The position numbers and the translations under genes are program-made. The notes under the pieces are model-generated. The model saw nothing but the letters and a program-made list of their open reading frames with translations. It had not been told where the DNA came from and did not search any database. A stretch of 64,000 bases of DNA, from the NCBI RefSeq assembly GCF_035818615.1, contig NZ_JAYKZY010000002.1, positions 1,986,501 to 2,050,500 of the forward strand, given 5' to 3'. Shown here piece by piece: positions 9,859-38,466 of this stretch (positions within the stretch are counted from its first letter, which is position 1; the number at the start of each line of letters is the position of its first letter). Source of the DNA: Sphingobium sp. CR2-8. Its GTDB lineage: Bacteria > Pseudomonadota > Alphaproteobacteria > Sphingomonadales > Sphingomonadaceae.

Positions 9859-9875
9859 TATCCGCCTGACGGATA
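9859..9875. promoter_or_regulatory. candidate IclR-regulon operator (perfect TATCCG-N5-CGGATA)
   Basis: TATCCG CCTGA CGGATA has six-base arms that match perfectly. It lies in the divergent gap between the exported hydrolase (start 9735, -) and the hydrolase-kinase-transporter operon (start 9977, +). The identical arms recur beside iclR at 29010 and upstream of the FAD hydroxylase at 38339. Confidence 0.65.
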
Positions 9876-9976
9876 GGGTGCGGTGCTCAATTGCCCGCTC
9901 CCGGTCTTGTCATAGGCTTTTAACAACGCGGTGGGACTTGTCCCGTTTTGGCCGCGCTCCAACGGAGCCTTGATCC

Positions 9977-10873
9977 ATGGCCCATGGCCTATCCGTCGGT
10001 ATGTCCGGCGTCCCCTTCGTCGTTCACGACACCCAGCGCGGCTATGTGCCGGGGCGTTATGGCCAGCTGCATTATCGCCTGTCCCGTCCAGCGCAGGACA
10101 GCGCGCTGCCGCCTTTGCTGCTGCTGCACCAGAACCCGTCGTCCAGCCTGGAATATCGCCATCTGATCGACGCGATGCGCAGCGACCGCACGGTGCTGGC
10201 GTTCGATACGCCGGGTTATGGCATGTCCGATGCGCCGCCCGCGCCGGTCGGCATGGCGGATTATGCGGCCTGCTTCGCTGATGCGATCGATGCCCTCGCC
10301 CCCCTGTTGCCCGGCCCGTTCGATCTCTACGGCTATCATACCGGCACTTTGCTGGCGCTGGAACTGGCGCTGGCGGCGCCGCATCAGATACGCCGCCTGG
10401 TCCTGTCGGGCATTCCCATGCGGCCGCCCGAGGAACAGGCCGAGCGCTATCGCGCCGCGCAGGATTTCGCACCGCTTGACGAGGACGGCACAGTCGCGAT
10501 CGACCTTGCAACCAAGCTTTGGGCTTATGTCGTGGCCGCGCGGCGGCCGGGCGTGACGCTCGACGAGGCGGCCGCCCTGTGGGTCGACAAGCTCAAACCC
10601 CTCGACCGTGCGGCCTGGGCCTATCTGGGCGTCTGGAGCTACGACTATCAGGCGCGCTTGCCGATGGTCGCCCATCCCGTCCTGCTGCTCCAGCCCGATG
10701 AGGAGATCGCCGCTGCATCAATCGCGGCGGCGGGCCTGATCCCGTCCGCACTGGTCGAGCGACTGGCCGGGTTCGACCGCGACATCTTCCACCTTCCCGA
10801 CAGCGTCGCCGCGATCGCCGTGGCGATGCGTCGTTATCTCGATCACCCTCTTTCATCAGGAGTCCAAGCATGA
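9977..10873 (+). CDS. alpha/beta-hydrolase-fold protein with His at the nucleophile position
   Basis: The 298-residue protein starts at ATG 9977 with GGAG nine bases upstream. The fold is clear: LLLLHQNPSSSLEY, VLAFDTPGYGMSDAP and a helix-rich lid. The nucleophile elbow reads G119-Y-H121-T-G123, so His replaces the usual Ser/Asp/Cys. The C-terminal His motif is also not canonical (DRDIFHLPDSV). The same GxHTG elbow occurs in the cytoplasmic protein at 14751. It may be a non-hydrolytic or cofactor-free enzyme, or use an alternative mechanism. It is first in an operon with an APH-like kinase (overlap 4 bases) and an MFS transporter, and the IclR-type palindrome lies about 100 bp upstream. Confidence 0.75.
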   Translation: MAHGLSVGMSGVPFVVHDTQRGYVPGRYGQLHYRLSRPAQDSALPPLLLLHQNPSSSLEYRHLIDAMRSDRTVLAFDTPGYGMSDAPPAPVGMADYAACFADAIDALAPLLPGPFDLYGYHTGTLLALELALAAPHQIRRLVLSGIPMRPPEEQAERYRAAQDFAPLDEDGTVAIDLATKLWAYVVAARRPGVTLDEAAALWVDKLKPLDRAAWAYLGVWSYDYQARLPMVAHPVLLLQPDEEIAAASIAAAGLIPSALVERLAGFDRDIFHLPDSVAAIAVAMRRYLDHPLSSGVQA

Positions 10874-11862
10874 CCACTACCTTAGTTCGGGCGGAGATCG
10901 CCCATTCCGTCGTCGACGCCAGCTTCCTGGCGCGCGAAGTCGCCGAACGCTATCCGATCAAGGGGCCGGTCACCGGCCTGCTGCTCTATCGCGGCATGAA
11001 CGACGTCTACATTATCCAGACCGCCGACACCCGCTACGCCCTGCGCGTATGGCGCAAGGATTATCGCGACGCGGACGAGGTCAGCTATGAACTGAACTTC
11101 CTCGACTATCTGCGGCAGCGCGGCTTCCCCGCCTCCACGCCGATCCACGCTCGCGACGGATCGCTCTATTTCAAGCTGGACGCGCCGGAGGGCGAGCGCG
11201 CGGTCGCCTTGTATGACTGGGCGGAAGGTACCAAGTTCGGCAACTGCCTGAACGTCGACACCGCGCATCGCATGGGCGCGCTGTTCGCCAAGATGCACCT
11301 GCTGGGCCTGGAATATGCCGGTCCCGACCATGTCTTCACCACGGACAATGCCGTGCGTTTCCAGGTGACCGTGCCCGCGCTGCTCGACTTCACCTATGAC
11401 CGGCCCGACGACCGGCGCGATTATGAGATCATCGGTCGCACCCTGGCTGAGCGACTGCGCGAGATTCAGGGCGACGACGTGCCGATGGGCATCTGTCATT
11501 GCGATTTCCACCCCAGCAACATCCATGTCGCCGAAGACGGCAGCATGACCTTCCTAGACTTCGATGGTCTGGGCGAGGATTATATGATGCAGGACGTGCA
11601 GAATTTCGTCTGGGGCAACCTGTTCTACGGCTTCTCCCCTTCCTATGGCGAAGCGTTCGAGGCGGGCTACGACACCGTCCGTCCGTTCAGCGCGCGCGAA
11701 AAGGAAAGCAAGGAACTGTTCCTGCTGGCCAAGGCATTCCGCCTGGTTGCGGGCATGGCCCATTCGTCCAACGCCGTCGGTCGGGGGACTTTGCGCTTCC
11801 AGGGAATGGACTGGCTGTCCGACTATATCAAGTCGCGCGCCCGTCCGCTGGGCCTGCTGTAA
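10870..11862 (+). CDS. APH/choline-kinase-family phosphotransferase
   Basis: This 330-residue kinase-like protein has an N-lobe nucleotide-binding region (GLLLYRGMNDVYIIQ, YALRVWRKDY). The catalytic loop is CHCDFHPSN with Asp212, and the metal site is FLDFDG (Asp230, Asp232). All phosphotransfer residues are present. Related proteins phosphorylate small alcohols and amino-alcohols (choline, homoserine, hydroxylysine) or antibiotics. Between a hydrolase-fold gene and an MFS transporter in a catabolic region, phosphorylation or trapping of an imported intermediate is more likely than drug resistance. It overlaps the upstream gene by 4 bases. Confidence 0.78.
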   Translation: MTTTLVRAEIAHSVVDASFLAREVAERYPIKGPVTGLLLYRGMNDVYIIQTADTRYALRVWRKDYRDADEVSYELNFLDYLRQRGFPASTPIHARDGSLYFKLDAPEGERAVALYDWAEGTKFGNCLNVDTAHRMGALFAKMHLLGLEYAGPDHVFTTDNAVRFQVTVPALLDFTYDRPDDRRDYEIIGRTLAERLREIQGDDVPMGICHCDFHPSNIHVAEDGSMTFLDFDGLGEDYMMQDVQNFVWGNLFYGFSPSYGEAFEAGYDTVRPFSAREKESKELFLLAKAFRLVAGMAHSSNAVGRGTLRFQGMDWLSDYIKSRARPLGLL

Positions 11863-11875
11863 GGGCATGAGCGGC

Positions 11876-13177
11876 ATGATGGATGCGACGACCGCCCATG
11901 GCGTGGAAGACTATCGCCCCGCCCGCGCCTGGTGGGCGGTCGCCCTGCTGTTCGTCGCGTCCATCCTGTCGGTGGTCGACCGTGGCATATTGTCGATCGT
12001 GGTCGATGCGGTGAAAGCCGACATCGGCCTGAGCGACGTGCAGATCAGCCTGTTGCAGGGGTTGGCGTTCGGCCTGTTCTATGCGGTCGTGGGCGTGTGG
12101 TTGGGCTTCATCGCCGACCGCATGTCGCGCCGCAACCTCGTCGCGGCGGGCATCGCTCTTTGGAGCGTCGCCACCGCCGCCAGCGGCTTCACCCATAGTT
12201 TCGGCGCGTTGTTCCTGTGCCGCATCCTTGTGGGCCTTGGCGAGGCGGCGCTGGCGCCGGCCGCCATTTCGCTGATCGCCGACCTGTTTCCTTCGGCCAA
12301 GCGCGGCAGGGCGATCGGCGTCTATCTGATGGGGCAGTCGATCGCGCAGGGCCTGTCCTTCCTGATCGCCGGCATGGTGCTGAAACATGCCGGTGCCGAC
12401 GGCTTTGCCGGGGTGCCCGTGCTGGACGGCCTTGCGCCCTGGCGCACCATGTTCGTGCTGTGCGGTCTGTCCGGCATTGTCGTGGTATTGGCTTGCCTGA
12501 CCGTCCGCGAACCCAGGCGCAAGGGCGTCGCCGTCGCCGCCGACACCAGCCAGTTGCGCGGGGTCGCGCGCCATTTCAATGCGCATCGCCTGTCGCTGGC
12601 GTCGCTATACGGCGGCTTCGCGCTCTTCTTCCTCGGCTCCTACGCCGCATTCGGCTGGCAGGTCGTGATGCTGTCGCGGCGGTTCGCGGTCGATGCCGCC
12701 AGCGTCGCCGTCATGCTCAGCCCAGTATCGCTCGCCTTCGGGATCGCCGGGCCGCTGGTCGGCGGCGCGCTGGTCGATGCCGCCGTCAAGCGGGATGGCA
12801 CGCGGGGCATATTGTCCCTGTTGCGCTTCGCCCCGCTGCTGGGCCTGCTTTTCTGCCTTTCGGTCGCCCTGCCATCGCTGTGGACCTGCGTCCTGCTGGT
12901 CGGCACGCTGGGCGGCGCGGCAGCGATCATGGGGACGATGACGCTGGCCTGGCTCCAGGCGACGATGCCCGCCGACATGCGTGGCGTCGCTGTATCCGCG
13001 ACGGGGCTGCTGAACACCATCATCGGCGCGGCTTTGGGACCATTGCTGGTGGCGCTGCTGACCGACCGGCTTTTCGCCGATCCCACGATGGTCGGTCCGG
13101 CCATCGTTTATGTCGCGGTGCCGGCCTTCATCGCTTCGGCGCTGCTCTATACGGTGTGCCACCGCGTTACGCGCTGA
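11876..13177 (+). CDS. MFS transporter
   Basis: The major facilitator of about 433 residues has roughly twelve hydrophobic segments. ATG 11876 is chosen because AAGGG at 11861-11865 sits ten bases upstream; ATG 11867 and 11879 are alternatives. The A-loop motif GFIADRMSRRNLVAAG follows segment 2, and LCRILVGLGEAALAPA is the segment-4 region typical of organic-acid/aromatic-acid MFS carriers in proteobacteria. It starts just after the kinase stop and closes the operon that begins at 9977. A strong bidirectional terminator follows. It probably imports a substrate or intermediate; the solute is unknown. Confidence 0.82.
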   Translation: MMDATTAHGVEDYRPARAWWAVALLFVASILSVVDRGILSIVVDAVKADIGLSDVQISLLQGLAFGLFYAVVGVWLGFIADRMSRRNLVAAGIALWSVATAASGFTHSFGALFLCRILVGLGEAALAPAAISLIADLFPSAKRGRAIGVYLMGQSIAQGLSFLIAGMVLKHAGADGFAGVPVLDGLAPWRTMFVLCGLSGIVVVLACLTVREPRRKGVAVAADTSQLRGVARHFNAHRLSLASLYGGFALFFLGSYAAFGWQVVMLSRRFAVDAASVAVMLSPVSLAFGIAGPLVGGALVDAAVKRDGTRGILSLLRFAPLLGLLFCLSVALPSLWTCVLLVGTLGGAAAIMGTMTLAWLQATMPADMRGVAVSATGLLNTIIGAALGPLLVALLTDRLFADPTMVGPAIVYVAVPAFIASALLYTVCHRVTR

Positions 13178-13189
13178 TGGCTATGGCAT

Positions 13190-13230: not shown

Positions 13231-13247
13231 ACATCATACTGTGATCG

Positions 13248-15669: not shown

Positions 15670-15686
15670 TTCCCGACAGGCGGATA
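15670..15686. promoter_or_regulatory. degenerate copy of the TATCCG-N5-CGGATA operator
   Basis: TTCCCG ACAGG CGGATA has a perfect right arm and 4 of 6 matches in the left arm. It is in the divergent gap between the GSHTG gene (-) and the M24/LLM operon (+). It is the weakest of the copies counted and rests on position plus one intact arm. Confidence 0.35.
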
Positions 15687-15769
15687 GCGACGATGGCGCT
15701 TTCGGCGGGTCGGGCGATCAGGTCTATCCAGGACGGATCGGAAAAATGGCGAAGGAAACGGGACGCATC

Positions 15770-17077
15770 ATGGCTTCCATCAGCGCGATCGGCTATCCGG
15801 GCGACGAGGCTCTGCGCATGGCTTTGCGGCATGGCGGCCCGATCAATCTGGACCGCGCGCGGGACGTGATGGCCCGGCACGGGCTGGACGGCATCGTCGT
15901 GGGGGACGCCATCAACGTCTTCCACATATTGGGCTATTGGCCGCAGATCGCCAATACCAAGCTTGGTCATCCGCCTACGACTTTCGCCCTGCTGCCCCGC
16001 GATCCGGCGCGGCCGACCGCCATCGTAACGTCGGATTTCATCTATTATTACAGCTTTGCCGATGGCGCGCTGCAACCGGCGCTCCAGCCGTTCCTGTTCG
16101 CCGATACCGACAATGACGGGACGGCGGAGGTCAATCTCCAGCCGATGTGGGGCTTTACCGACCGGCGCGAGCAGGCCGGGGGCGACGTGGAACAGCGGCG
16201 ACGTGCCGGGATGGACGGCGTGGGCGCGACCCGCCGTTTCCGCAATGCGGGCGGCGCGCTGGCCGGAGCGATGCGCGAACTGGGCCTTTGGGACGGACGG
16301 ATCGCGATCGATCATGACGTGATCGCCGCGGTATGCGATCGGCATGGTCGGCCCGGCACTTACGGTCCGGCCGACACCATCCTGCGCGAGATACGGATCA
16401 TCAAGTCTCCGCTGGAGATCGCGCTGATGCGGCGCGCGGCCCAGGCCAATGCCGACGCCGTCGACGCGGTGATGGCCAGCGTGCGGGCGGGCGCTGGCTA
16501 TGGCGAGTTGCGTCGCCAGTTTGCGATCGAAAGCGCGCGGCGCGACAATCAGGCGGTATTCATGACCGTCGATCGGGTATCGACCGAATTGATCGACGGC
16601 GATCATGTTCGCGACGGCCAGACCCTGTTCTTGGACGGCGTGGGGCACTTCCAGCATTATCATGGCGACTATGCGCGCACCGTCTTCGTGGGCGAACCGC
16701 TGGCCAGTGCGCGGCGGGCGGCGGGAGCGGTGGAAACCGGTTGGCAGGCGATCCGCGAAGCCTTGCGGCCCGGCATGCGCTATTCAGAAATTGTGGCGAT
16801 CGGCGCTGACGCGGTGCGCAAGGCAGGCTTCGACCATCTGATCGGTTTCGGTCCGCATAGTGTGGGTCTGATGCATTCCGACGAGCCATCGCTCGACGGT
16901 GGCGGCTTCTACCGCAAGGACGATCTGGTGCTGCAACCCAATATGGTGCTGAGCGTCGATTGCCCCGTGGTCGAAACCGGACTGGGCGGATCGGCCCATG
17001 TCGAAGACCTGATGCTTATCACGGCCGATGGCGCCGAACCGATCCACAGCATTTCCGACCATCTGGTCACAGTCTGA
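15770..17077 (+). CDS. M24-family metallopeptidase-like hydrolase
   Basis: This 435-residue pita-bread-fold protein has an N-terminal creatinase/prolidase-like domain (about 1-200) and a catalytic domain. The expected metal ligands are Asp289 (LFLDGVG), Asp300 (HGDYARTV), His369 (VGLMHSDEP) and Glu412 (AHVED). The fourth ligand position carries Asp397 (SVDCPVV) instead of the usual Glu. Metal ligands argue against a creatinase, which is metal-free. ATG 15770 is preferred; ATG 15746 is a possible alternative start. It heads an operon with two LLM-family proteins, so it may cleave an amide or imide bond in an oxidised intermediate. The substrate is not known. Confidence 0.75.
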   Translation: MASISAIGYPGDEALRMALRHGGPINLDRARDVMARHGLDGIVVGDAINVFHILGYWPQIANTKLGHPPTTFALLPRDPARPTAIVTSDFIYYYSFADGALQPALQPFLFADTDNDGTAEVNLQPMWGFTDRREQAGGDVEQRRRAGMDGVGATRRFRNAGGALAGAMRELGLWDGRIAIDHDVIAAVCDRHGRPGTYGPADTILREIRIIKSPLEIALMRRAAQANADAVDAVMASVRAGAGYGELRRQFAIESARRDNQAVFMTVDRVSTELIDGDHVRDGQTLFLDGVGHFQHYHGDYARTVFVGEPLASARRAAGAVETGWQAIREALRPGMRYSEIVAIGADAVRKAGFDHLIGFGPHSVGLMHSDEPSLDGGGFYRKDDLVLQPNMVLSVDCPVVETGLGGSAHVEDLMLITADGAEPIHSISDHLVTV

Positions 17078-17091
17078 ACCGGGACACTGTT

Positions 17092-18027
17092 ATGATCCTA
17101 TCCACTTGCCTAGATTTGGCCGCCGACGTCGCCGGTCCCCAGTTGATGGCGCGCTTGCGCGCCGACCTTTCCGCCTGCAAGGCTGCGGGCGCCGATATGC
17201 TTTTGCTCGGGCGACAGGACGGCGCGCTGGTCGTGCCGGGTCGGCTGGACGCCCTGATCGGCGCGCCCAGCCTGGCGGGAGATGCGCAGGGTGTCGCGCT
17301 GGTCGCGGTGCTGCCGACGCTGTTCAGCCTGCCCTTCCATGTCGCGCGTGGTCTCTCCGCAGCCGATTTCCTGACGGGCGGCACGATGGGCTGGTTGCCC
17401 AGCGCGGTCACGACATCGCTGCGCACGACCGGCTTCGGCGCGGAATATGCGATCGACGCAAGCGACATCCCGGCCAAAGCCGCCGACATGGTGCGCGCGA
17501 CACAAGCCTTGTGGGACAGCTGGGACGGCGACGCTTTGGTGATCGACAAGGCAACGGGCCGTTACCTGGACACGAGCCGGGTGCGGCGCGTGGATTATCG
17601 CGGCACCCATTTCGATGTGATGGGACCGCTCAACGCCGCGCGCCCTCCGCAAGGCTATCCGGTACTGGTCGCTGATGAACAGGACGCCATCCTGCGCGCG
17701 CCGGACTATCGGCCCGACCTGTTGCTGGTCGGCGGCGACGATGCAGTCGGCACTTCTTCAGCGATCGCCGCCTGGCGCGAGCGGGGTTTTAGCGGGCGCA
17801 TCCTGGCGAAGGTGGCGAGCGCTGTCGTGGCAGGCGCCTGTCCCATCGATCAGGCCGGCGCCATCATCGGCGCCGACGGCTTCCATGTCATCGCCGCCGA
17901 CGCGCCATCCGCCCTTGCGGCGCTGCGTCCGTCCGGCACACCGCCGACCGGCGCGACCCTGCGAGAGCGCCTTTCGCTGGCCGTCCCGGCTACGCCCCAT
18001 AGCGCGAACAGGAGCATCGCAGCATGA
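17092..18027 (+). CDS. divergent luciferase-like (LLM, NtaA-type) protein
   Basis: The protein is 311 residues, against about 440 for typical NtaA/DmoA monooxygenases. The family signatures are recognisable but eroded: GTMGWLPSAVTTS where the active family has GRAGWNIVTS, and YRGTHFDVMGPLNAARPPQGYPVLVAD where it has the GPLNVPRPPQGRPV strand. Start ATG 17092 is 15 bp after the M24 stop. Its stop overlaps the start of a full-length LLM monooxygenase (ATGA). It may be a non-catalytic partner subunit, as in bacterial luciferase LuxB, or a specialised enzyme. I see no frameshift. Confidence 0.65.
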   Translation: MILSTCLDLAADVAGPQLMARLRADLSACKAAGADMLLLGRQDGALVVPGRLDALIGAPSLAGDAQGVALVAVLPTLFSLPFHVARGLSAADFLTGGTMGWLPSAVTTSLRTTGFGAEYAIDASDIPAKAADMVRATQALWDSWDGDALVIDKATGRYLDTSRVRRVDYRGTHFDVMGPLNAARPPQGYPVLVADEQDAILRAPDYRPDLLLVGGDDAVGTSSAIAAWRERGFSGRILAKVASAVVAGACPIDQAGAIIGADGFHVIAADAPSALAALRPSGTPPTGATLRERLSLAVPATPHSANRSIAA

Positions 18028-28930: not shown

Positions 28931-29009
28931 ATATGCGACTCCCGTATGACATTTCCGTTGCAGATAAGGGATCATGAAATTCTCATAGATCGGATAGTGC
29001 GGCAACGTT

Positions 29010-29026
29010 TATCCGCCTGTCGGATA
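29010..29026. promoter_or_regulatory. candidate IclR operator (perfect TATCCG-N5-CGGATA)
   Basis: TATCCG CCTGT CGGATA has perfect six-base arms. It is between iclR (start 28930, -) and the aldehyde dehydrogenase gene (start 29173, +). A further CGGATA half-site is at 28991-28996. Placement next to an IclR gene is the main reason for linking this motif to that family. Confidence 0.7.
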
Positions 29027-29172
29027 GATTGTCTCTTTGTCGCCGCCTTATGGAACCAACAGCGTTGTTCGCCTGCCGAAGCTCTGCAACGCATGGCGTG
29101 AGGGTGGCGGGCTGTCCGTCTAGCTGTTGCAGTCTCCACCGCGATCTCCGCCCCATCTGCAAGGACATGATC

Positions 29173-30681
29173 ATGCTGCACATTTCCCGCCCGGCCCTAC
29201 GCCCCGATACAGAGGCCTTCCTTGCGCGACGCGGTGCGGGCAGCGGCTTGCTGATCGACGGCAGCTGGCGGGACGCCCAAGGGAGCGGCACGCTCGCTAC
29301 GCTGGACCCCGCAACCGGCAAGGAACTGGCGCGAATCAGCGATGCGTCGACCGCCGACGTCGATGAAGCCGTGTCGGCCGCGCGCAAGGCGCTGCCGGGG
29401 TGGCGGGCCACCACGCCCGTCGCGCGCGCACGCATCCTCTGGGCCATCGCCGACCTGATCGAAGCGCATATCGACGAACTGGCGGAACTGGAGACGCTGG
29501 ATCAGGGCAAACCCCTGTTCGTAGGCCGTTGGGCGGAGATCCCCGGCGCCGTGAACCAGTTTCGCTTCTTTGCAGGACAGGCGATGGCGATCGAGGGGCA
29601 GACGCTCAACAGTTCGATCGACTATCAGCCGCAGGGCAAGCAGGTGTCGACCTGGACCGTGCGCGAGTTGGTGGGCGTGGTCGCCGCCATCGTGCCATGG
29701 AACTCCCCGCTGGTGCTGACCGCGATGAAACTGGCCCCGGCGCTGGCCGCAGGCTGTACCCTTGTGCTCAAGCCTGCGGAAGACACGTCGCTGACCGCGC
29801 TGCGGCTGGGCGAACTGATGATGGAGGCGGGCCTGCCTGCGGGCGTGCTCAACATCGTCACCGGCCTTGGCGCCACCACCGGCGCGGCGCTGTCCACCTA
29901 CAGGGGCGTCGACAAAATCGCCTTCACGGGTTCCACCGCCACGGGCCGCGCGATCCTCGACGCGGCCAAGATCGATTTCAAGCGCGTGACGCTGGAACTG
30001 GGCGGCAAATCCCCCACCATCGTCATGCCCGACGCCGACCTCAGCCTCGCCATTCCCGGGGTCGCCAACGCGATCTTCTTCAATGGCGGCCAGGTGTGCA
30101 TCGCCGGATCGCGCCTTTACGTGCATAGCAGCATCCGGGATCAGGTGATCGAGGGTGTCGCCGCCTATGCAAAAGGCCTGGCGTTGGGCCATGGCCTGGA
30201 TGCGGCGACGCAGATGGGGCCGCTGGTGTCGGCCCGCCATGCCGAACGGGTGGCGGGCTTCATCGACGGCGCCCGCGCGGACGGGGCGAGCATCGTGACG
30301 GGCGGCGAGCGCTTGGGCGACGCAGGTACATTCATCACCCCCACCCTCGTTACCGATGTCCGCCCCGACATGGCGATCGTGCAGGAAGAAGTGTTCGGCC
30401 CCGTGCTGGTCGCCCAAAGCTTCGACGACACGGACGAAGTGATCGCGGCGGCCAACGACAGCCAATATGGCCTGGCCGCCAGCGTGTGGACCGAATTGCT
30501 CTCGACGGCACACCGTATGAGCAGCGCGATCCATGCCGGGACCGTCTGGATCAACTGCCACGCCATGTATGACGCCACCTTGCCGATCGGCGGCATCAAG
30601 CAATCCGGTTGGGGACGCGACAGCGGACGGCAAGCGCTCGACAGCTATCTGGAGTGGAAGACCGTCTGCGCCGTCATCTGA
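29173..30681 (+). CDS. aldehyde dehydrogenase (NAD(P)+)
   Basis: The dehydrogenase of 502 residues starts at ATG 29173, seven bases after AAGGA; ATG 29167 is too close to that motif. Family landmarks are VVAAIVPWNSPL, FTGSTATGRAI, general-base Glu275 (TLELGGKSP) and catalytic Cys309 (FFNGGQVCIAGSR). It oxidises an aldehyde to the acid. It is divergent from iclR over a perfect operator copy, so it is likely an IclR target. A paralogue lies at 35604, and the two may act on successive or alternative aldehydes. Confidence 0.9.
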   Translation: MLHISRPALRPDTEAFLARRGAGSGLLIDGSWRDAQGSGTLATLDPATGKELARISDASTADVDEAVSAARKALPGWRATTPVARARILWAIADLIEAHIDELAELETLDQGKPLFVGRWAEIPGAVNQFRFFAGQAMAIEGQTLNSSIDYQPQGKQVSTWTVRELVGVVAAIVPWNSPLVLTAMKLAPALAAGCTLVLKPAEDTSLTALRLGELMMEAGLPAGVLNIVTGLGATTGAALSTYRGVDKIAFTGSTATGRAILDAAKIDFKRVTLELGGKSPTIVMPDADLSLAIPGVANAIFFNGGQVCIAGSRLYVHSSIRDQVIEGVAAYAKGLALGHGLDAATQMGPLVSARHAERVAGFIDGARADGASIVTGGERLGDAGTFITPTLVTDVRPDMAIVQEEVFGPVLVAQSFDDTDEVIAAANDSQYGLAASVWTELLSTAHRMSSAIHAGTVWINCHAMYDATLPIGGIKQSGWGRDSGRQALDSYLEWKTVCAVI

Positions 30682-30739: not shown

Positions 30740-30948
30740 TTGCGTTCTTGCGTCAAATCGCCCCGCCTGCTCGCATGGCGGTCAAATATCGCCGGACACT
30801 GGCTCCGCCCCTGACAATGCAGTCGGTTGTGCTCAGGCGATGGTCCCACGGGACCGCGACGATTTCGGTAATCCGGCCTCACGGTATAGCGCTGCATCCT
30901 TGTCATGGATGACGCCCCTATCCGGTGGCCGCTTGATATGGGGTGCTT

Positions 30949-33006
30949 ATGGCCTATCGGTTGGGCGTTGACGTGGGCGGGACATTCACGGACCTGCTGC
31001 TGTTCGAAGAGGAAAGCGGCGCGTTCTGGCGGCACAAGACGCCATCGACCCCGCATGACAGTTCCGAAGGCATCCTCAATGGCGTCACCGCCATTTGCGG
31101 AAAGGCGGACATCACGCCAGCCGACATCGAGATCTTCCTGCACGGCACCACCGTCGCGACGAACGCCATCCTGGAAGGCAAAGGCGCGCGCGTCGGCCTG
31201 ATCGTGACGGAAGGCTATCGCCAGATCATGCAGATCGCACGCAGCTTCGTCCCCGGCGGCCTGGCGGGCTGGATCGTATGGCCCAAGCCCGTCCCTCTCG
31301 CCGCGCTGGAGGACACGTTCGAGATCAAGGGGCGCATGGACGCGAAGGGCAACGAACTGCGCCCGATCGACGATGCCGACATTCGCGCCGTGTTGGAAGC
31401 GCTGAAGGCGCGCGGCGTCGAAGCGCTGACCGTCAGCCTGGTCAACGGCTATATCAACGGCGCGCATGAAAAGCGGGTGGGCGAACTGGCGGCCGAAATC
31501 CTGCCCGATATTCCGATCTCGCTCAGCCATATCGTCCTGCCGGAAATGCAGGAATATGAGCGGACCCTGACCACGGTCGCCAACGCATCGGTGCGTCCGG
31601 TCGTCAGCCGCTATGTCCGCAACCTGCGCGACCGCCTGCGTGACTCCGGCATGGCGGGTCAGTTGTCGCTGCTGCGGTCCGACGGCGGCCTCATGTCGTC
31701 GGAAAGCTCGGAAGAACAACCGGTTGCGCTGCTCATGTCCGGCCCGGCAGGCGGCGTCACCGGCGCGCTTTGGGTCGGCAAGAATGCGGGCATCCGCAAT
31801 ATTCTGACCCTAGACGTCGGCGGCACATCGACCGACGTGGCGCTGATCGAAAATCTGGAAGCGCGCCGCGTTCGCACGACGGAGGTGGGCCATCTGTCGG
31901 TCCGCGCCTCCGCCCTGGACGTCAAGACCGTGGGCGCGGGCGGCGGGTCGATCGCCTATGTGCCCGAACTGACCAAGGCGCTGCGTGTCGGTCCGCAATC
32001 GGCGGGCGCGGTGCCCGGTCCCGTCGCCTATGGCAAGGGCGGCACGCTGCCCACCGTGACCGACGCCAACGTCGTGCTGGGCTATCTGCCCGAAGCGCTG
32101 CTGGGTGGCACGTTCAAGCTGGACAAGGCCGGTTCGGAAAAGGCGGTACAGACCATCGCCGACGCGCTGGGCATCGGCCTTTACGAAGCCGCGCGCGGCA
32201 TCATCGACATCGTGAACGAGAATATGTTCGGCGCGCTGCGCATGATCTCGGTGCAGCAAGGCTATGACCCCCGCGATTTCGCGCTCATGGGCTTTGGTGG
32301 GGCCGGTCCGATCCACGTTAACGCGGTCGCCCGCCTGATGGGCAGCTGGCCCGCCGTATCGCCGGTATCACCCGGCGTGCTGTGTGCGCTGGGCGACGCC
32401 ACGACCCAGATGCGCGCGGAAACCGCCCGCTCCTTCTCCCGCCGGTTCAGCGAGACGCAGGAATCCGAAGTCCGCACCATCCTGGACGAGATGGCAGCGC
32501 AGACCCGCGAAGCCCTGATCGCGGACGGCGTGCCGGAATCGGAAATCAGCAGCCTGTTCGAAATCGACGTGCGTTATGAAGGCCAGGCCTTCGAAGTGCC
32601 ACTGTCGATCGATCCGGAAACGCTGGCGAAGGACGGCTTGGCTGGCATCACCGCACGGTTCGACGCGGAGCATAAGCGGCTGTTCACCTTCAACATGGAC
32701 TCCGCGCACGAACTGGTGAACCTGCGCGCCGTGGCGTTGGGTCAGGCGCTCGACCTGCCGGCCGCCGAACTGCCGGTCGGCAATGGCGACCCGATCGACG
32801 CTAAGATTCGCGATCACCAGCTCTGGATCGACGGGGAAATCCGGCCTGCCGTTATCTACGATCGCGCCAAGCTGCGCCAGGGCGACATCATCCCCGGCCC
32901 GGCCATCGTCACCGAGATGGACTCCACCACGCTGATCGAGGCGGATTGCACCGCCACCGTCGACCGCGTCGGCAACATCCTCATCAACCCGACCACCCAG
33001 GCCTGA
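30949..33006 (+). CDS. hyuA: hydantoinase/oxoprolinase subunit A (HyuA-like)
   Basis: The 685-residue subunit starts at ATG 30949, with GGGG five bases upstream; an in-frame GTG at 30943 overlaps that motif. The hydantoinase A signatures are an N-terminal ASKHA-type phosphate loop (RLGVDVGGTFTDLLLF), LHGTTVATNAILEGKG, MSGPAGGVTGALWVGK and LDVGGTSTDVALI. Relatives use ATP to open hydantoin, N-methylhydantoin, 5-oxoproline or related cyclic amides, or carboxylate ketones. HyuB follows 11 bp later, then an N-carbamoyl-amidase-like gene, which favours a hydantoin-type substrate here. The product must be named loosely, because family members differ widely. Confidence 0.85.
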   Translation: MAYRLGVDVGGTFTDLLLFEEESGAFWRHKTPSTPHDSSEGILNGVTAICGKADITPADIEIFLHGTTVATNAILEGKGARVGLIVTEGYRQIMQIARSFVPGGLAGWIVWPKPVPLAALEDTFEIKGRMDAKGNELRPIDDADIRAVLEALKARGVEALTVSLVNGYINGAHEKRVGELAAEILPDIPISLSHIVLPEMQEYERTLTTVANASVRPVVSRYVRNLRDRLRDSGMAGQLSLLRSDGGLMSSESSEEQPVALLMSGPAGGVTGALWVGKNAGIRNILTLDVGGTSTDVALIENLEARRVRTTEVGHLSVRASALDVKTVGAGGGSIAYVPELTKALRVGPQSAGAVPGPVAYGKGGTLPTVTDANVVLGYLPEALLGGTFKLDKAGSEKAVQTIADALGIGLYEAARGIIDIVNENMFGALRMISVQQGYDPRDFALMGFGGAGPIHVNAVARLMGSWPAVSPVSPGVLCALGDATTQMRAETARSFSRRFSETQESEVRTILDEMAAQTREALIADGVPESEISSLFEIDVRYEGQAFEVPLSIDPETLAKDGLAGITARFDAEHKRLFTFNMDSAHELVNLRAVALGQALDLPAAELPVGNGDPIDAKIRDHQLWIDGEIRPAVIYDRAKLRQGDIIPGPAIVTEMDSTTLIEADCTATVDRVGNILINPTTQA

Positions 33007-33017
33007 AGGATTTAGCG

Positions 33018-34901
33018 ATGCCTGCAACCATCATTCAGAGCAACGACGCCCCCTTCAACCCGGGTCGCATCGACCCGGTCACGCTGGAGGTGATCGAGAA
33101 CGCCCTGCGCAACGCCCGCGTCGAAATGGACGCCACATTGGTGCGGACCGCCATGTCGCCGGGTATCCGCGAACAGGGCGACGCCTTCCCCCTGATCGCC
33201 GATCACAAGGGGCGCATGATCGTGGGCCAGTTCGGCTCCTATATCGGCCCGTTCCTGGAAGGGTTCGAAGGCACGATCGAGGATGGCGACATGATCATGC
33301 TGTCCGATCCCTATTCGGTCGGCGGCGCGATCAGCCATTGCAACGACTGGCTCGTCCTGCTGCCCGTTTTCAAGGATGGGCGCCTGATCGCCTATACCTC
33401 CATGTTCGGGCATCAGTCCGACATCGGCGGCAAGGTGGCCGGTTCCATGCCGATCGACGCCACCTCGATCTTCCAGGAAGGCGTGCGCATTCCGCCGATC
33501 AAAATCTATCGGCGCGGCGAATATAATGCCGATCTGATCAAGCTGATCATGACCCAGGTCCGCACCCCCGAATGGTGCTCGGCGGATTTGAACGCGCTGA
33601 TCGCTTCCTGCCGCGTGGCTGCGCGCCGGGTGGTGGAAATGGCCGAACGCTTCGGCGACGATGTGTTCGTATCGGCGACCGACGAACTGCTCGCCCGCAA
33701 CTATCGCGCGATGAAGCATCTGATCGCCACGTCGGTGGGTGAGGAACCGGTCAGCTTCCAGGATTATATCTGCGACGACGGCATGGGTTACGGCCCCTAC
33801 CGCATCCGCTGCACCATGCGGCGCGAAGGCGAGCGGGTGATCCTGGATTTCGACGGCACCGATCCGCAAAGCCCGGCATCCATCAACTTCTTCCTCAACG
33901 AAAACATGCTCAAGATGTTCTTCGGCATCTACATGATCATGGTGTTCGATCCGCAGATCCTGTTCAACGACGGGTTCTACGAACTGATCGACGTCCGTAT
34001 TCCCCAAGGGTCGCTGCTCAAGCCCGATTTCCCCGCCGCCCTGTCGGGCCGCACCCATGCGCTGGGCCGCATCTTCGACATTTTGGGCGGACTGCTGGGT
34101 CAGAAGACGCCGGAATTCCTGAACGCCGCCGGCTTCTCGTCCTCGCCGCATCTCTTCTATTCGGGCACGGACAGGAACGGCAAATATTTCCAGCTGTTCC
34201 AGATCGGCTTCGGCGGCATTCCGGGCCGACCGCTGGGTGACGGGCCGGACGGCCATTCGCTCTGGCCGGGCTTCACCAATGTGCCCAACGAGTTTCTGGA
34301 GCGTTACTTTCCGCTGGTCATCGAAAATTACGAGACCGTCGCGGATTCGGGCGGCGCCGGGCTGCATCGGGGCGGAAACGGCATCAAAATGTCCTACCGC
34401 TTCCTGGAACCCGGCGCGATCGCCATCCATGACGACCGCTGGTTCGTGCCGCCATGGGGCGTCAATGGCGGCCATCCGGGCGCCCGCGCGCGCAAGATCC
34501 TGGAAAAGCCCGATGGCACCCAGACGATCTTGGGCAACAAGCTGGAGGATTTCGAGGTCGAGGCAGGCGATATCCTCCATTTCATCACCTGGGGCGGCGG
34601 CGGCTGGGGCGATCCGCTCAAGCGCGACCCGGCACTGGTGGCGAAGGAAGTCCGCCAGGGCCTGGTGACGGTGCAGGGCGCGCGCGTCTACGGCGTCGTC
34701 ATCGTCGATGGCGAGGTGGACGAAGGGGCAACCGCTGCCCTGCGTTCCAGCATGGTCGCGTCCAACCTGCGCGATCCCGACATGCTGTTCGACTTCGGAC
34801 CGGACATCGAAAAGCTGCGCGCCAACTGCGAAGCGGAAACCGGCCTCCCCGCGCCGCGCCAGCGCCTGTGGGCCGTTCCCGAAGCCATCGCGGCGGAGTG
34901 A
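33018..34901 (+). CDS. hyuB: hydantoinase/oxoprolinase subunit B (HyuB-like)
   Basis: The 627-residue subunit starts at ATG 33018, with AAGGA eight bases upstream; the frame's earlier extension overlaps hyuA. It carries HyuB features: DPVTLEVIENALRNARVEMDATLVRTAMSP, SDPYSVGGAISHCNDW, FGHQSDIGGKVAGSMP, a central DFDGTDPQSPASINFFLNE and a C-terminal HDDRWFVPPWGVNGGHPG followed by FITWGGGGWGDP. It forms the metal-binding partner of HyuA in ATP-dependent cyclic-amide hydrolysis. It is followed within 3 bp by the isochorismatase-family gene, forming a tight three-gene operon. Confidence 0.87.
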   Translation: MPATIIQSNDAPFNPGRIDPVTLEVIENALRNARVEMDATLVRTAMSPGIREQGDAFPLIADHKGRMIVGQFGSYIGPFLEGFEGTIEDGDMIMLSDPYSVGGAISHCNDWLVLLPVFKDGRLIAYTSMFGHQSDIGGKVAGSMPIDATSIFQEGVRIPPIKIYRRGEYNADLIKLIMTQVRTPEWCSADLNALIASCRVAARRVVEMAERFGDDVFVSATDELLARNYRAMKHLIATSVGEEPVSFQDYICDDGMGYGPYRIRCTMRREGERVILDFDGTDPQSPASINFFLNENMLKMFFGIYMIMVFDPQILFNDGFYELIDVRIPQGSLLKPDFPAALSGRTHALGRIFDILGGLLGQKTPEFLNAAGFSSSPHLFYSGTDRNGKYFQLFQIGFGGIPGRPLGDGPDGHSLWPGFTNVPNEFLERYFPLVIENYETVADSGGAGLHRGGNGIKMSYRFLEPGAIAIHDDRWFVPPWGVNGGHPGARARKILEKPDGTQTILGNKLEDFEVEAGDILHFITWGGGGWGDPLKRDPALVAKEVRQGLVTVQGARVYGVVIVDGEVDEGATAALRSSMVASNLRDPDMLFDFGPDIEKLRANCEAETGLPAPRQRLWAVPEAIAAE

Positions 34902-34904
34902 TCC

Positions 34905-35528
34905 ATGGCCGATGATCTCAATGAAAACTACCGGGGCGCGTTTGACGGCGCGCTCCGCTTCGGCAGCAAGCCCGCGCTGCTGATCGTCGATGTGGTCGTC
35001 GCCTATCTGACGCCCGGATCGCCGCTCTACGACCCGGCGTTCCAGGTGGCGCTGGAATCCAACGAACGGCTGGTCGCGGCAGCGCGGGCGGCGGGCATGC
35101 CGGTGATCTTCACCAATGTCGTCTATCAACCCGGCGGCGCGGACGGCGGGCTGTTCTACCGCAAGGTGCCCGCCCTGTCCGCCTTCCAGCGCGGGTCGGC
35201 GATGGGCGCATTTCCTGATACGTTGCAACCGGCCGATGCGGATACGATCGTGTCGAAACAATATGCGTCGGCCTTCTTCGGCACGTCGCTCGCCTCTACC
35301 CTGGCGGCGCAGGGGATCGACACGCTGTTGATTACCGGCTTCTCCACATCCGGCTGCGTCCGCGCGACGGCTCTGGATGCGCTTCAGCACGGGTTCGTGC
35401 CCTTCGTGGTGCGCGAAGCCTGTGGCGACCGTCACCCCGCCCCGCATGAGGCCAATCTGTTCGACCTTCAGGCCAAATATGCCGAAGTGGTGAGCGAAGC
35501 GAAAGCAATCGAACTGATCGGAGGCTGA
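34905..35528 (+). CDS. isochorismatase-family amidohydrolase (N-carbamoylsarcosine-amidase-like)
   Basis: The 207-residue protein has the complete triad Asp29 (LLIVDVVVAY), Lys118 (IVSKQYASAFFGT) and Cys151 (GFSTSGCVRATALDAL). Start ATG 34905 is 3 bp after the hyuB stop. N-methylhydantoin pathways combine an ATP-dependent HyuAB amidohydrolase with an N-carbamoylsarcosine amidase of exactly this fold, so the operon may convert a hydantoin-like ring to an amino acid plus CO2 and ammonia. The alternative is a half-amidase for another ring-opened amide. It is similar to but distinct from the protein at 2812. Confidence 0.83.
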   Translation: MADDLNENYRGAFDGALRFGSKPALLIVDVVVAYLTPGSPLYDPAFQVALESNERLVAAARAAGMPVIFTNVVYQPGGADGGLFYRKVPALSAFQRGSAMGAFPDTLQPADADTIVSKQYASAFFGTSLASTLAAQGIDTLLITGFSTSGCVRATALDALQHGFVPFVVREACGDRHPAPHEANLFDLQAKYAEVVSEAKAIELIGG

Positions 35529-35543
35529 GGTCTTCCTTCGCCA

Positions 35544-35588
35544 AACGAAAAGAGCCTGCATTCGCGTCGGATGCAGGCTCTTTTCGTT
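35544..35588. terminator. bidirectional rho-independent terminator
   Basis: A perfect 18-bp stem (AACGAAAAGAGCCTGCAT and its complement) around a 9-base loop has A- and T-runs inside the lower stem on both strands. It separates the convergent hyu operon (+) and aldehyde dehydrogenase gene (-). Confidence 0.9.
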
Positions 35589-35603
35589 GAGGTTGCAGCA
35601 GGT

Positions 35604-37115
35604 CTAAAGCCGAGCGGTAACGGCTTTCGTTTCCAGATAAGCGTCCAGCCCTTCCTTGCCGAACTCCCGGCCCCAGCCAGACTGGCCATAGCCGCCGAAC
35701 GGGATATTGGTGCCGACAGCACCATGGCAGTTGATCGACACATGGCCGGAGCGGATGCGCGCGACCAGCCGGTGGGCAGTCGACAGGTCGCGGGTCCATA
35801 CGCTGCCCGACAGGCCGAAGGGCGTATCGTTGGCGAGCGCCGCAATGGCGTCCAGATCGGTGGTGGCGAAGCGCTGCACCGCCATGACCGGGCCGAAAAT
35901 CTCCTCACGCACCACCGCCATGTCGGGGGTCGTGTCGGTGAAGATCGTCGGCTGAATGAAGTTGCCCGGCCGGTCGAGCCGCTTGCCCCCCGCGACCAGC
36001 CTTGCGCCCGCGGCGACTGCCCCTTCGATATAGCCCATCACCTTGGCGGTATGCGCGTCGGAGATCATCGGCCCCTGCTGCGTCGACAGCGCCAGGCCGT
36101 GGCCCAGCGCCATGGACCCGGCAAAGGCAGCCAGTCCCTCGATCAGTTGATCATGTATCAATTCGTGCACGAAGATGCGCGTACCCGCCATGCAGTTCTG
36201 GCCCTGCAGGAAGAAGGTAGCGAGCGCGACGCCGGGGATGGCCAGCGCCAGGTCGGCATCGGGCATGACGACCACCGGCGACTTGCCACCCAGTTCAAGC
36301 GATACCTTCTTGAGATTGCCAAGGGCCGCCTGCACGATCCGCTTGCCGGTGGCGGTTGATCCGGTGAAGCTGATCTTGTCCACGTCGGGATGTTCGGCCA
36401 GCCGCGCGCCCGCCGTGGCGCCCAGGCCATTGACGATATTGACCACGCCGTCGGGGAAGCCGGCTTCCCCGATCATCGCGCCCAGCGCAAGGATCGACAG
36501 CGGTGTTTCCTCCGACGGCTTGATCACCACGGTGCATCCGGCCGCCAGGGCAGGCGCAAGCTTCAGGATAGCGGTAGACAGCGGGACGTTCCACGGCACG
36601 ATCTGTCCTGCCACCCCCACCGGTTCGCGCAGCGTATAGGTCAGCGCCTCCGTCTCGGCCGCGACATGGCGCGGTGGGGCGATGGTCGTCCCTTCGATCC
36701 GCATGATCGCACCGGCATAATAATCGACCATTTCGACGCAGTTGGCGACCGTCAGCCCCGCGATGAACATCGGCATGCCATTGTCGAGCACGTCGAGTTC
36801 TGCGAGCAGTTGGCTGTTGCTTTCCATCACCCGCGCCAGGCGAAACAGCAGAGCCGTTCGCTGTGCCACGGTCATGCGGCGCCACGGCCCGTCGAACGCG
36901 CGCCGTGCCGCCGCGACGGCGCGATCGATGTCGGACGCGTCCCCTAATTGTACCGTCGCCAATGGCATGCCGGTCGCGGGGTCGGTGGTTACGCGCGTGC
37001 CGCCCTGCCCGTCCACCCATTGCCCGTCGATCAGCAGTTGGTGTGGCCCTTTCAAAAACGCTGTCGTTTCCGGCGCGATCGCGTGGCCGTCGAACGCTTT
37101 CACGCGGTCATTCAT
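35604..37115 (-). CDS. aldehyde dehydrogenase (NAD(P)+)
   Basis: The dehydrogenase of 503 residues starts at ATG 37115, which overlaps the stop of the upstream FAD hydroxylase by 4 bases; a TTG further upstream is unnecessary. It has AGQIVPWNVPL, FTGSTATGKRI, Glu274 (SLELGGKSP) and catalytic Cys308 (FFLQGQNCMAGTR). The QNCMAG form differs from the more common GQVC and resembles enzymes acting on bulky or aromatic aldehydes, though substrate calls from this are weak. Co-transcription with the hydroxylase, behind two operator copies, ties it to the IclR-type regulon. Confidence 0.88.
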   Translation of the reverse strand: MNDRVKAFDGHAIAPETTAFLKGPHQLLIDGQWVDGQGGTRVTTDPATGMPLATVQLGDASDIDRAVAAARRAFDGPWRRMTVAQRTALLFRLARVMESNSQLLAELDVLDNGMPMFIAGLTVANCVEMVDYYAGAIMRIEGTTIAPPRHVAAETEALTYTLREPVGVAGQIVPWNVPLSTAILKLAPALAAGCTVVIKPSEETPLSILALGAMIGEAGFPDGVVNIVNGLGATAGARLAEHPDVDKISFTGSTATGKRIVQAALGNLKKVSLELGGKSPVVVMPDADLALAIPGVALATFFLQGQNCMAGTRIFVHELIHDQLIEGLAAFAGSMALGHGLALSTQQGPMISDAHTAKVMGYIEGAVAAGARLVAGGKRLDRPGNFIQPTIFTDTTPDMAVVREEIFGPVMAVQRFATTDLDAIAALANDTPFGLSGSVWTRDLSTAHRLVARIRSGHVSINCHGAVGTNIPFGGYGQSGWGREFGKEGLDAYLETKAVTARL

Positions 37116-38263
37116 ACCGGCACCGTCCTGCAATCATAATCGAACAACCCGAGAGACTCCTCATCACGCATCTCACCCAGGCCGAAATTTTTGGTTTCCT
37201 GACCCTGCATCCGGTCAGCATTGGCATTGGATTCGGCCTGGATGAAGCTTGCCCTGTCATGGCGCGCCGCGACGTAACGGCGCAAGCCCTCCTCGACCGT
37301 TCCGCCCGCCGCCAGCGCGCGCGCCAGAACGACGGCGTCCTCGATCGCGCAGGCCGCGCCGTGCCCCAGAAACGGCGTCATGGCATGCGCGGCGTCGCCC
37401 AGCAGCGTCACATTGCCGTCGACTATCCAGTCGGGCAACGCCGCTCTTGCATTGATCGCCCATTTGAACAGCGGCACCTGCGACGCCGCCCCGATCAACG
37501 CCTGCACGTCTTCGCACCAACCGGCAAAGACCGCCCCCAGATCGGCGGGATTTGCCGGGATGGTCCAGCCCTCATCGGTCCAGCCCGATTGCCGCGCGAA
37601 AAAGACGATGTTGAGCAACTTGCCTCCGCGCACCGGGTAGCGGGTGACCATCCGCCCAGGCCCGATATGGATCCCTGGATAGTCCGCCAGCGGCTTCACG
37701 GCGCCTTCCGCCGGGACGAGCGCCCGCCACGCCACATGGCCGGTAAAGTGGGCAGGCCTGGTTTCGAACCTTTCGCGCACGACCGACTTCACGCCATCCG
37801 CGCCCACGATCACGTCCCCGGTGATCCGCGTTCCGTCCTTCAGGATGACGCTGGCCCCCTCCGTGGATACGGCCGCCGCGTCGTTGCGCAACGTGACGCC
37901 AGCATCACGCGCCGCCTTGAGCAACAGCGCGTGCAGGTCGGCCCGGTGCACGGTGACATAGGGTGCGCCGTATTTTCCCCGCTGGCTTTCCCGATTGATC
38001 GGGATGAGTGTGCGGCCATCCTCCCAATGCTGGATGCGTTGGCGCGTCGGTTCGACCCCCGCCGCAGCGACGTCTTCGCAAATGCCGATATGGTCCAGCC
38101 CCTTCATCGCATTGGGCGACAAGGTGACGCCCGCCCCTATGTCCCCGAATTGGGGCGCTGCTTCCAGCAGGGTGACGGGAAACCCGGCCCTGGCGATCGC
38201 GGTCGCAGCGGTCATCCCGCCGATCCCGCCGCCAACGATCACGATATGTTCAGAAGCAGCCAT
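37112..38263 (-). CDS. FAD-dependent aromatic-ring hydroxylase (salicylate/6-hydroxynicotinate hydroxylase-like)
   Basis: This 383-residue group A flavoprotein monooxygenase has the dinucleotide fold VIVGGGIGGMTAA (8-20), the DG motif GADGVKS (154-160) and the FAD-ribityl GD motif LLGDAAHAMTPFLGHGA (287-303). It uses NAD(P)H and O2 to hydroxylate, sometimes with decarboxylation, an aromatic or N-heteroaromatic ring. The single-component architecture matches salicylate 1-hydroxylase and 6-hydroxynicotinate 3-monooxygenase types, which sequence alone cannot separate. It is first in an operon with an aldehyde dehydrogenase; a perfect operator copy lies about 75 bp upstream. Confidence 0.87.
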   Translation of the reverse strand: MAASEHIVIVGGGIGGMTAATAIARAGFPVTLLEAAPQFGDIGAGVTLSPNAMKGLDHIGICEDVAAAGVEPTRQRIQHWEDGRTLIPINRESQRGKYGAPYVTVHRADLHALLLKAARDAGVTLRNDAAAVSTEGASVILKDGTRITGDVIVGADGVKSVVRERFETRPAHFTGHVAWRALVPAEGAVKPLADYPGIHIGPGRMVTRYPVRGGKLLNIVFFARQSGWTDEGWTIPANPADLGAVFAGWCEDVQALIGAASQVPLFKWAINARAALPDWIVDGNVTLLGDAAHAMTPFLGHGAACAIEDAVVLARALAAGGTVEEGLRRYVAARHDRASFIQAESNANADRMQGQETKNFGLGEMRDEESLGLFDYDCRTVPV

Positions 38264-38338
38264 TTTTCACCATTATATCACAGGGACATCCTGGCATTTG
38301 AACGGCGTTTTGGCACCCCACGATGTCGGGTAAGATAC

Positions 38339-38355
38339 TATCCGGCATGCGGATA
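38339..38355. promoter_or_regulatory. candidate IclR-regulon operator (perfect TATCCG-N5-CGGATA)
   Basis: TATCCG GCATG CGGATA has perfect arms and the same 5-bp spacer as at 9859 and 29010. It lies 76 bp upstream of the FAD hydroxylase start on the reverse strand. Confidence 0.65.
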
Positions 38356-38449
38356 ACGCCCCCTTCGCCATCAAGGCGTCACGGATTGCATGTTGGGACG
38401 CGTTCCTGCCTTCAATACCTATCGGCAAATGCATCCCACCCCCATCGAA

Positions 38450-38466
38450 TATCCGACAGTCGGATG
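38450..38466. promoter_or_regulatory. near-perfect second operator copy
   Basis: TATCCG ACAGT CGGATG matches 11 of 12 arm positions. Centre-to-centre distance to the site at 38339 is 111 bp, near a whole number of helical turns (10.6). It lies 87 bp upstream of a small membrane-peptide gene (+). Confidence 0.6.

Follow-up and report, generated by a model that had tools for sequence, protein, structure and literature searches.

The 64,000-nucleotide stretch of Sphingobium sp. CR2-8 DNA analysed here (the window; positions 1,986,501 to 2,050,500 of contig NZ_JAYKZY010000002.1) contains a catabolic region in which the palindrome TATCCG-N5-CGGATA recurs, with a refined form, TATCCGnCWGnCGGATA (W, A or T), that is very probably the operator of the IclR-family protein encoded at 28142-28930. 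This assignment is made from sequence comparison, as the same palindrome sits at a near-fixed position before orthologous iclR genes. A preliminary description of the window had joined palindrome and regulator by inference from their position, with the footprint in relatives and its near-fixed spacing now giving the predicted link strong comparative support.

The palindrome in the window and the genome

The description listed three exact copies, one matching 11 of 12 bases and one degenerate copy, all five of which were recovered at the same positions with a 5-base spacer. Given as candidate operators, with scores from the position matrix introduced below and no strand assigned, they are:

9859-9875: copy 1, exact, flanked by hydrolase genes running leftward from 9735 and by the hydrolase/kinase/MFS operon running rightward from 9977; matrix score 27.5
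15670-15686: copy 2, two mismatches, between a hydrolase gene and the M24/luciferase-like monooxygenase (LLM) genes; matrix score 15.5
29010-29026: copy 3, exact, between iclR (leftward) and the aldehyde dehydrogenase 1 gene (rightward); matrix score 30.3
38339-38355: copy 4, exact, upstream of the flavin adenine dinucleotide (FAD) monooxygenase/aldehyde dehydrogenase 2 operon; matrix score 20.6
38450-38466: copy 5, one mismatch, ahead of a 29-residue open reading frame (ORF), 111 bp from copy 4; matrix score 24.5

Copy 3, the one described as lying between iclR and a divergent aldehyde dehydrogenase gene, has its first base 96 bp ahead of the iclR ATG. The left half of copy 2 is degenerate, with its spacer (ACAGG) and right half of consensus type.

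A scan of the whole genome, which the description had asked for, finds three exact matches in 4,514,557 bases (three contigs), all inside the window and all intergenic rather than scattered through coding DNA. Base composition predicts ~0.16 exact copies per genome, the reversed pattern, used as a control, does not occur at all, and the chance of three random copies clustering within 28.5 kb is ~1e-4, bearing out the earlier view that the recurrence is very unlikely to be accidental. With up to one mismatch there are seven copies genome-wide, four of them in the window, where a scan of spacers from 0 to 30 at the same stringency finds four copies with spacer 5 and single copies with spacers 7 and 18, the remaining 28 spacers giving none. 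Looser matching is uninformative, with 31 matches at up to three mismatches in the window (25.7 expected; 31 reached in 19 of 100 shuffles), which is about chance level. At up to two mismatches the motif is rarer in the genome than the reversed control (143 versus 215), and the 15670 copy therefore cannot rest on mismatch counts; such counts were rejected as evidence for weak copies, and a position matrix was used in their place. An extended pattern allowing two mismatches (281 forward matches in the genome versus 58 for the control) was likewise dropped as too loose.

The four strong sites are intergenic, as the description held, given the likely starts of the flanking genes (hydrolases 9735 and 9977, iclR ATG 28930, aldehyde dehydrogenase ATG 29167 or 29173, FAD monooxygenase ATG 38263, and peptide ATG 38553), with ORFs called by a GC3 heuristic rather than a trained gene finder. 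The 15670 copy falls within the longest ORF of the M24 gene, yet upstream of its likely ATG at 15746 or 15770. The sites in the window begin 76-157 bp ahead of likely start codons, not over them.

Conservation upstream of iclR orthologues

The regulator gene is:

28142-28930 (minus strand): IclR-family regulator, 262 amino acids, with Pfam PF09339 and PF01614 above cut-off; start ATG 28930

The protein scores 33.9 bits against PF09339 (cut-off 22) and 38 bits against PF01614 (cut-off 24). Its longest ORF runs to a TTG at 29005, only 4 bases from the operator, which, taken with the site-to-ATG spacing in relatives, indicates that the TTG-started reading overstates the gene; among the orthologous products listed, most begin MEKGVPIRSI.

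A scan of a species collection yielded 36 loci encoding relatives of this protein, nearly all from named sphingomonads and spanning Sphingomonas, Sphingobium, Novosphingobium, Blastomonas, Sphingorhabdus, Sandaracinobacteroides, and some metagenome-assembled genomes. The site at each locus was taken as the best match to the 12 fixed bases of the motif within 130 bp upstream of the matched iclR stretch, those 12 positions being partly selected as a result; the spacer bases are free of this selection, as are the distance between site and start codon and the order in which the window's sites rank. An exact copy is present at 28 of the 36 loci, a one-mismatch copy at four, and a two-mismatch copy at one, such that the conservation upstream of orthologous iclR genes proposed as a check in the description holds for 32 of 36 at up to one mismatch. 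Of 1800 stretches of 130 bp drawn at random from these loci, 13 come within one mismatch, and some of the draws may overlap the true site. The first base of the best site lies 91-96 bp before the iclR start codon at 28 loci (96 bp in the window), including L043 and L047, whose sites are 3- and 2-mismatch copies respectively, and 73-114 bp before it at six of the 36; the best matches at L046 and L053 carry four mismatches.

The position matrix was built from the 32 orthologous sites with no more than one mismatch, excluding the window and the four loci with more than one mismatch. The centre of the spacer is conserved in these sites, with C at position 8 in 32/32, A or T at position 9 in 32/32, and G at position 10 in 27/32, giving the refined consensus TATCCGnCWGnCGGATA. 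Although the window did not contribute to the matrix, its five copies rank as the window's top five, with the sixth place scoring 11.3; in 3 Mb of simulated DNA matched for dinucleotide content, scores of at least 14 occur 0.11 times and scores of at least 16 occur 0.06 times per 64 kb. Elsewhere in the genome the matrix was applied to the three remaining one-mismatch copies, two of which, at C2:3284197 (score 1.3) and C2:1965308 (score 9.2), were rejected.

The motif and the protein also co-occur in a sample of 298 genomes of the family, in which IclR-positive denotes a match at E 1e-60 or better and some of which also belong to the 36-locus set. An exact copy is found in 54 of these genomes and the IclR protein in 26, with exact copies in 19 of the 26 IclR-positive genomes against 35 of the 272 IclR-negative ones; in 12 of those 19, the 160 bp upstream of an IclR match contain an exact copy. 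The CWG spacer occurs in nine of 61 exact copies (eight of them in IclR-positive genomes), spread over seven genomes, six of them IclR-positive. For 30 of the 36 loci the whole genome was scanned, and the CWG pattern with up to one mismatch is present in 30/30, at one to five copies each, compared with zero to three for the reversed control; the control exceeds the pattern in G300 and G302, and equals it in several others.

These data bear on whether the palindrome could instead be the operator of another regulator, with iclR merely one of its targets, which we consider improbable. The exact copies in 35 IclR-negative genomes speak for such a regulator, as does the same-genus genome G076, which has two copies and no IclR match. 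However, the copies in IclR-negative genomes mostly lack the CWG centre, eight of the nine CWG copies being in IclR-positive genomes, and the motif tracks the IclR protein through rearranged gene orders and, less often, down to ~50% identity. It is present ahead of some homologues at 47-57% identity (L096, L097, L099, L101, L102, and L112). Furthermore, the motif fits the 17-bp operator geometry described for IclR proteins in the available part of a published survey (PMC8222616).

Several observations count against the assignment of the palindrome to this IclR protein. Three of the 36 loci (L043, L046, and L053) have no copy within two mismatches in the 130 bp upstream of iclR, and most homologues below 50% identity have two-mismatch copies only, or none. 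A putative recognition helix, VPYPTACRIVQTL, is shared unaltered by 30 of the 36 relatives and changed at one residue in the other six, yet distant homologues without an exact or one-mismatch site (e.g. L098 and L108) retain it or nearly so; the helix alone therefore does not predict the site, and is consistent with the link rather than proof of it. Additionally, the genomes are close relatives of one another, as are several of the 36 loci (e.g. L031/L035/L036 and L050/L051/L052), and Fisher tests and counts thus overstate independence.

The 6-bp stem and 5-nt loop would also permit a role in RNA, as a terminator or attenuator hairpin in leader transcripts, and a simple terminator scan flags the 29010 copy, behind which T-rich DNA lies. 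This is very improbable, as bases are conserved and not just pairing: by inspection, the 32 orthologous sites contain no compensatory double changes, two of the four single changes leave a wobble pair and two break the pair, and the bases that would form the loop are symmetric and conserved as well. That the copies arose by chance, or belong to a repeated mobile palindrome, is a negligible prospect, even though the motif is short and at least one exact copy occurs in 54 of 298 family genomes. All three exact genomic copies lie within 28.5 kb, their flanks are unrelated by inspection, and the footprint before iclR relatives, whose absence would have favoured this explanation, was found. Chance, a mobile repeat, and an RNA hairpin were accordingly rejected on clustering, unrelated flanks, footprint, and base conservation.

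With the palindrome as the operator of the IclR protein, a dimer would read both half-sites, and a second weak site 20-21 bp away in some relatives would fit a tetramer. Tandem IclR sites 18-22 nt apart are reported for 94 groups in the available part of the survey (PMC8222616). A search for a second site at 18-22 nt places offsets -20 and +21 among the four best of 98, averaging just 4.8-4.9 of 12 bases; a second site at this distance reaches 8 or 9 of 12 at nine of 32 loci (eight upstream, one downstream), and the best in the window reaches 6 of 12. At L091, two one-mismatch copies (2347 and 2367) lie 20 bp apart before an iclR homologue, as tetramer binding would predict. In many Novosphingobium loci, a TTGA-like element and a CGGtcA-like block are seen after the operator and before iclR (~5-21 bp after it at L026, L029, L033, L039, and others), possibly a -35 element and an extra half-site.

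Predicted targets and extent of the regulon

The genes flanking the five sites are:

29167-30681 (plus strand): aldehyde dehydrogenase 1; Pfam PF00171; likely start ATG 29167 or 29173, by inspection
35604-38263 (minus strand): FAD monooxygenase and aldehyde dehydrogenase 2, running leftward from 38263
15746-19304 (plus strand): M24 metallopeptidase-family gene, an unassigned ORF, and a luciferase-like monooxygenase
7742-9735 (minus strand): two alpha/beta hydrolases, the one starting at 9735 beginning with a signal-peptide-like stretch
9977-13177 (plus strand): alpha/beta hydrolase, APH-family kinase, and MFS transporter; orthologues do not support regulon membership
38553-38642 (plus strand): 29-residue ORF, MSRVDLLGDRICSVTCLLIVGWFLYSVAF, with a 74% identical paralogue in the same genome

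The IclR protein would bind its own divergent promoter, providing autoregulation and control of aldehyde dehydrogenase 1, and would also bind before the FAD monooxygenase/aldehyde dehydrogenase operon, before the M24/LLM genes, and at the 9859 hydrolase promoter, there serving one side or both, with a pathway compound bound by the C-terminal domain acting as the switch. The description had proposed a single regulon covering the exported hydrolases, the GxHTG/kinase/MFS operon, the M24-LLM operon, the aldehyde dehydrogenase, the FAD hydroxylase operon, and the 29-residue peptide, a list which is only partly supported. The iclR/aldehyde dehydrogenase pair is a strong predicted target through the 29010 site.

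The FAD monooxygenase operon is likewise a strong candidate from its two sites (38339 and 38450), and its orthologues occur in 19 of 298 family genomes, 18 of them IclR-positive. Yet no site scoring 13 or more lies within 1500 bp upstream of the gene at 18 relatives' loci (three of them cut by contig ends). Among the 36 loci the gene usually stands inside a longer row of genes, which may explain the missing upstream site. The M24-LLM operon is backed in part: M24 orthologues occur in five of 298 genomes (Sphingobium sp. CR2-8 included), four of the five IclR-positive, and a good operator-like site precedes two of the three closest orthologues (L166, TATCCAACAGTCGGATA, score 24.6; L167, TGTCCAACTGGCGGATA, score 18.7). 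These better copies lend support to the degenerate 15670 site, while L165, the third of the closest orthologues, and two more distant M24 homologues have no upstream site.

The 9859 site faces two gene sets. The kinase of the 9977 operon is found in four of 298 genomes, all IclR-positive, and no site scoring 13 or more precedes the kinase operon in any of the three relatives (nothing above 1.9 in the fetched loci), which is evidence against conserved control of this operon. It would be reasonable to look instead to the hydrolases across from it as the target of the 9859 site, and the description's inclusion of exported hydrolases is plausible. The third one-mismatch copy outside the window, C2:2979440 (L006; L152:11440), scores 18.3 and starts 88 bp ahead of the likely ATG of a gene for an exported alpha/beta hydrolase. 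The frame of this gene is broken, and part of its product shows 34% identity to that of 8737-9735. Some 1.5 places of this score are expected per genome, an estimate from a single event in the 3 Mb of simulated DNA.

The 29-residue ORF is probably real, and its product probably membrane-spanning, with the paralogue at C2:1305708-1305788 and weak matches in two of 98 other genomes searched. Its place in the regulon is uncertain, as the paralogue's locus has no copy better than three mismatches; the 38339 and 38450 sites, 111 bp apart, could both act on the FAD monooxygenase promoter.

The siteless FAD monooxygenase, kinase, and L165 loci, along with the siteless peptide paralogue, speak against the full target list, and a smaller regulon, in which the operator/IclR link is real but extends to iclR/aldehyde dehydrogenase 1, the FAD monooxygenase, and the M24/LLM genes only, is a serious possibility, albeit short of an even chance. 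The 9859 and 38450 sites would then have no role for the kinase operon or the peptide, consistent with the absence of sites at all three orthologous kinase operons and at the peptide paralogue. Against this, the 9859 site is exact and scores 27.5, the 38450 site scores 24.5, and the edges of regulons often vary between species.

Further sites are present in the 36 loci, where 13 places beyond the iclR site score at least 18, 12 of them intergenic or near a start and one deep in a called ORF. L027, from Novosphingobium rosa NBRC 15208, has four exact sites. The neighbours of the 13 places include a methyltransferase/FAD-oxidase pair, an allantoinase-fold/amine-oxidase pair, a phosphoenolpyruvate (PEP) mutase gene, and a DUF1838 gene; lowering the threshold to 13 adds TonB receptors and the aldehyde dehydrogenase 1/hydantoinase promoter.

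Related regulators, the pathway, and its genomic setting

We lean slightly towards the IclR protein acting as an activator rather than a repressor, as its sites in the window start 76-157 bp before likely start codons and its nearest named model is of the MhpR type, MhpR being an activator. That model, the best NCBIfam match of the protein, is PRK09834, which we take to represent the MhpR family, although the score lies far below cut-off (152.5 versus 299 bits). The PcaR/PcaU/PobR model TIGR02431 is also well short of its cut-off (76.6 versus 284.75 bits).

The operator is of a familiar type. In the available part of the survey by Suvorova and Gelfand (2021; PMC8222616), the consensus for IclR group 1 is GKTYCRYW3-4RYGRAMC, with TTGTCCGATSATCGGACAR given for PobR of Acinetobacter and GGTGCACCTGGTGCACA for MhpR of E. 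coli. The group 1 core, TYCR...YGRA with odd spacing in a 17-bp palindrome, is present as TCCG-N5-CGGA, near-invariant in the 32 orthologous sites, which were themselves chosen for closeness to it. The outer bases and the centre depart from group 1, with TA/TA outermost in place of GK/MC (or TG/CA, GT/AC, WT/AW) and C-W-G in place of the central A/T triplet. The PobR operator shares the 17-bp palindrome, the TCCG-N5-CGGA core, and an IclR-family regulator of catabolic genes; its half-sites are otherwise the same, spacer aside, but carry G rather than A at the second base, and its centre is A/T rather than C-W-G. The CCTGG centre of the MhpR operator (PMC8222616), in contrast, resembles the CWG centre here, whereas the outer half-sites differ and the targets are not mhp genes. 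PheR of Sphingobium sp. SHPJ-2 is likewise a sphingomonad IclR regulator of a catabolic operon, yet in the available part of that report its minimal site is GCAACG, within a 44-bp footprint lacking the TATCCG palindrome (PMC13273656).

The predicted regulon and operator are new, while the IclR family and the type of operator are familiar. Searches of an open-licence library yielded no paper on this operator or gene set, on sphingomonad IclR comparative genomics, or on the pathway, and in the available part of a paper on LdtR the letters of the motif occur in primers only. The consensus provides a testable operator for a regulator with relatives at 36 loci, indicates which genes work together within a large and poorly named catabolic region, and serves as a sequence handle for the remaining pathway genes and, from them, the substrate.

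Two further gene groups lie between aldehyde dehydrogenase 1 and the FAD monooxygenase operon:

30943-34901 (plus strand): hydantoinase/oxoprolinase A and B subunits; nearest NCBIfam models caprolactamase, below cut-off
34905-35528 (plus strand): isochorismatase-fold amidohydrolase; best solved matches N-carbamoylsarcosine amidohydrolase and, second-best, 3ot4

The latter structure is, we assume, maleamate amidohydrolase. Solved relatives of the FAD monooxygenase include tropone 2-monooxygenase and 6-hydroxynicotinate 3-monooxygenase. The loci of relatives also hold LeuCD-like subunits, an allantoinase-fold protein, a PEP-mutase-family protein with 2,3-dimethylmalate lyase among its solved relatives, and a protein matched best, among solved structures, by maleate cis-trans isomerase, with an annotated Novosphingobium capsulatum plasmid carrying a compact row of arylmalonate decarboxylase, FAD monooxygenase, isocitrate lyase/PEP mutase, regulator, hypothetical, and isochorismatase-family genes.

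From this gene content we infer the breakdown of a substituted nitrogen ring via maleamate- and maleate-like steps. The conserved set presumably resembles the nic (nicotinate) pathway in its 6-hydroxynicotinate monooxygenase-, maleamate-amidase-, and maleate-isomerase-like enzymes, and differs in also having LeuCD-like hydratase, PEP-mutase/dimethylmalate-lyase-like, hydantoinase AB, and allantoinase-fold genes. A more specific reading, offered tentatively and as rather doubtful, places under the control of the IclR protein a sphingomonad pathway, as yet undescribed, whose substrate is a substituted N-heteroaromatic compound. Ring opening would proceed by way of a cyclic imide or maleamate-type intermediate, which would be deaminated to an alkylated maleate and then hydrated by the LeuCD-like enzyme, with the product split by a PEP-mutase-family (dimethylmalate-lyase-like) or HMG-CoA-lyase-like enzyme. 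The presence of a TonB receptor and of exported hydrolases suggests that the substrate is large or conjugated.

Positions 1-7757 hold polysaccharide-deacetylase-type, second isochorismatase-fold, HMG-CoA-lyase-like, CoA-transferase, and LeuC/LeuD-like genes, a group that probably belongs to the same pathway; the matrix scan of this part finds no operator-like site scoring above 10.2.

A transfer RNA gene lies to the right of the region:

38769-38845: tRNA-Met(CAT); synteny with same-genus relatives ends at its 3' end, 38767-38769

The alignment containing this tRNA starts at 38767-38769 in 19 of 20 same-genus relatives, the query having been extended ~128 bases further left, although in one of these 19, G342, it covers little beyond the tRNA; in G332 it is split, with the tRNA piece starting at the same place. 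Left of the tRNA, the fetched flanks of nine relatives match neither the window nor the preceding 20 kb, and the IclR gene (E 1e-60) is found in none of the five same-genus genomes of the family sample. On these grounds the catabolic region looks acquired or highly variable, and the region left of the tRNA looks like a tRNA-associated variable island, with no 16-mer duplicate of the tRNA end (an att site) in the window or the 20 kb to its left. In Novosphingobium, relatives of the IclR protein (53-79% identity) lie on seven plasmid records of 0.6-1.8 Mb, two of them predicted to be conjugative.

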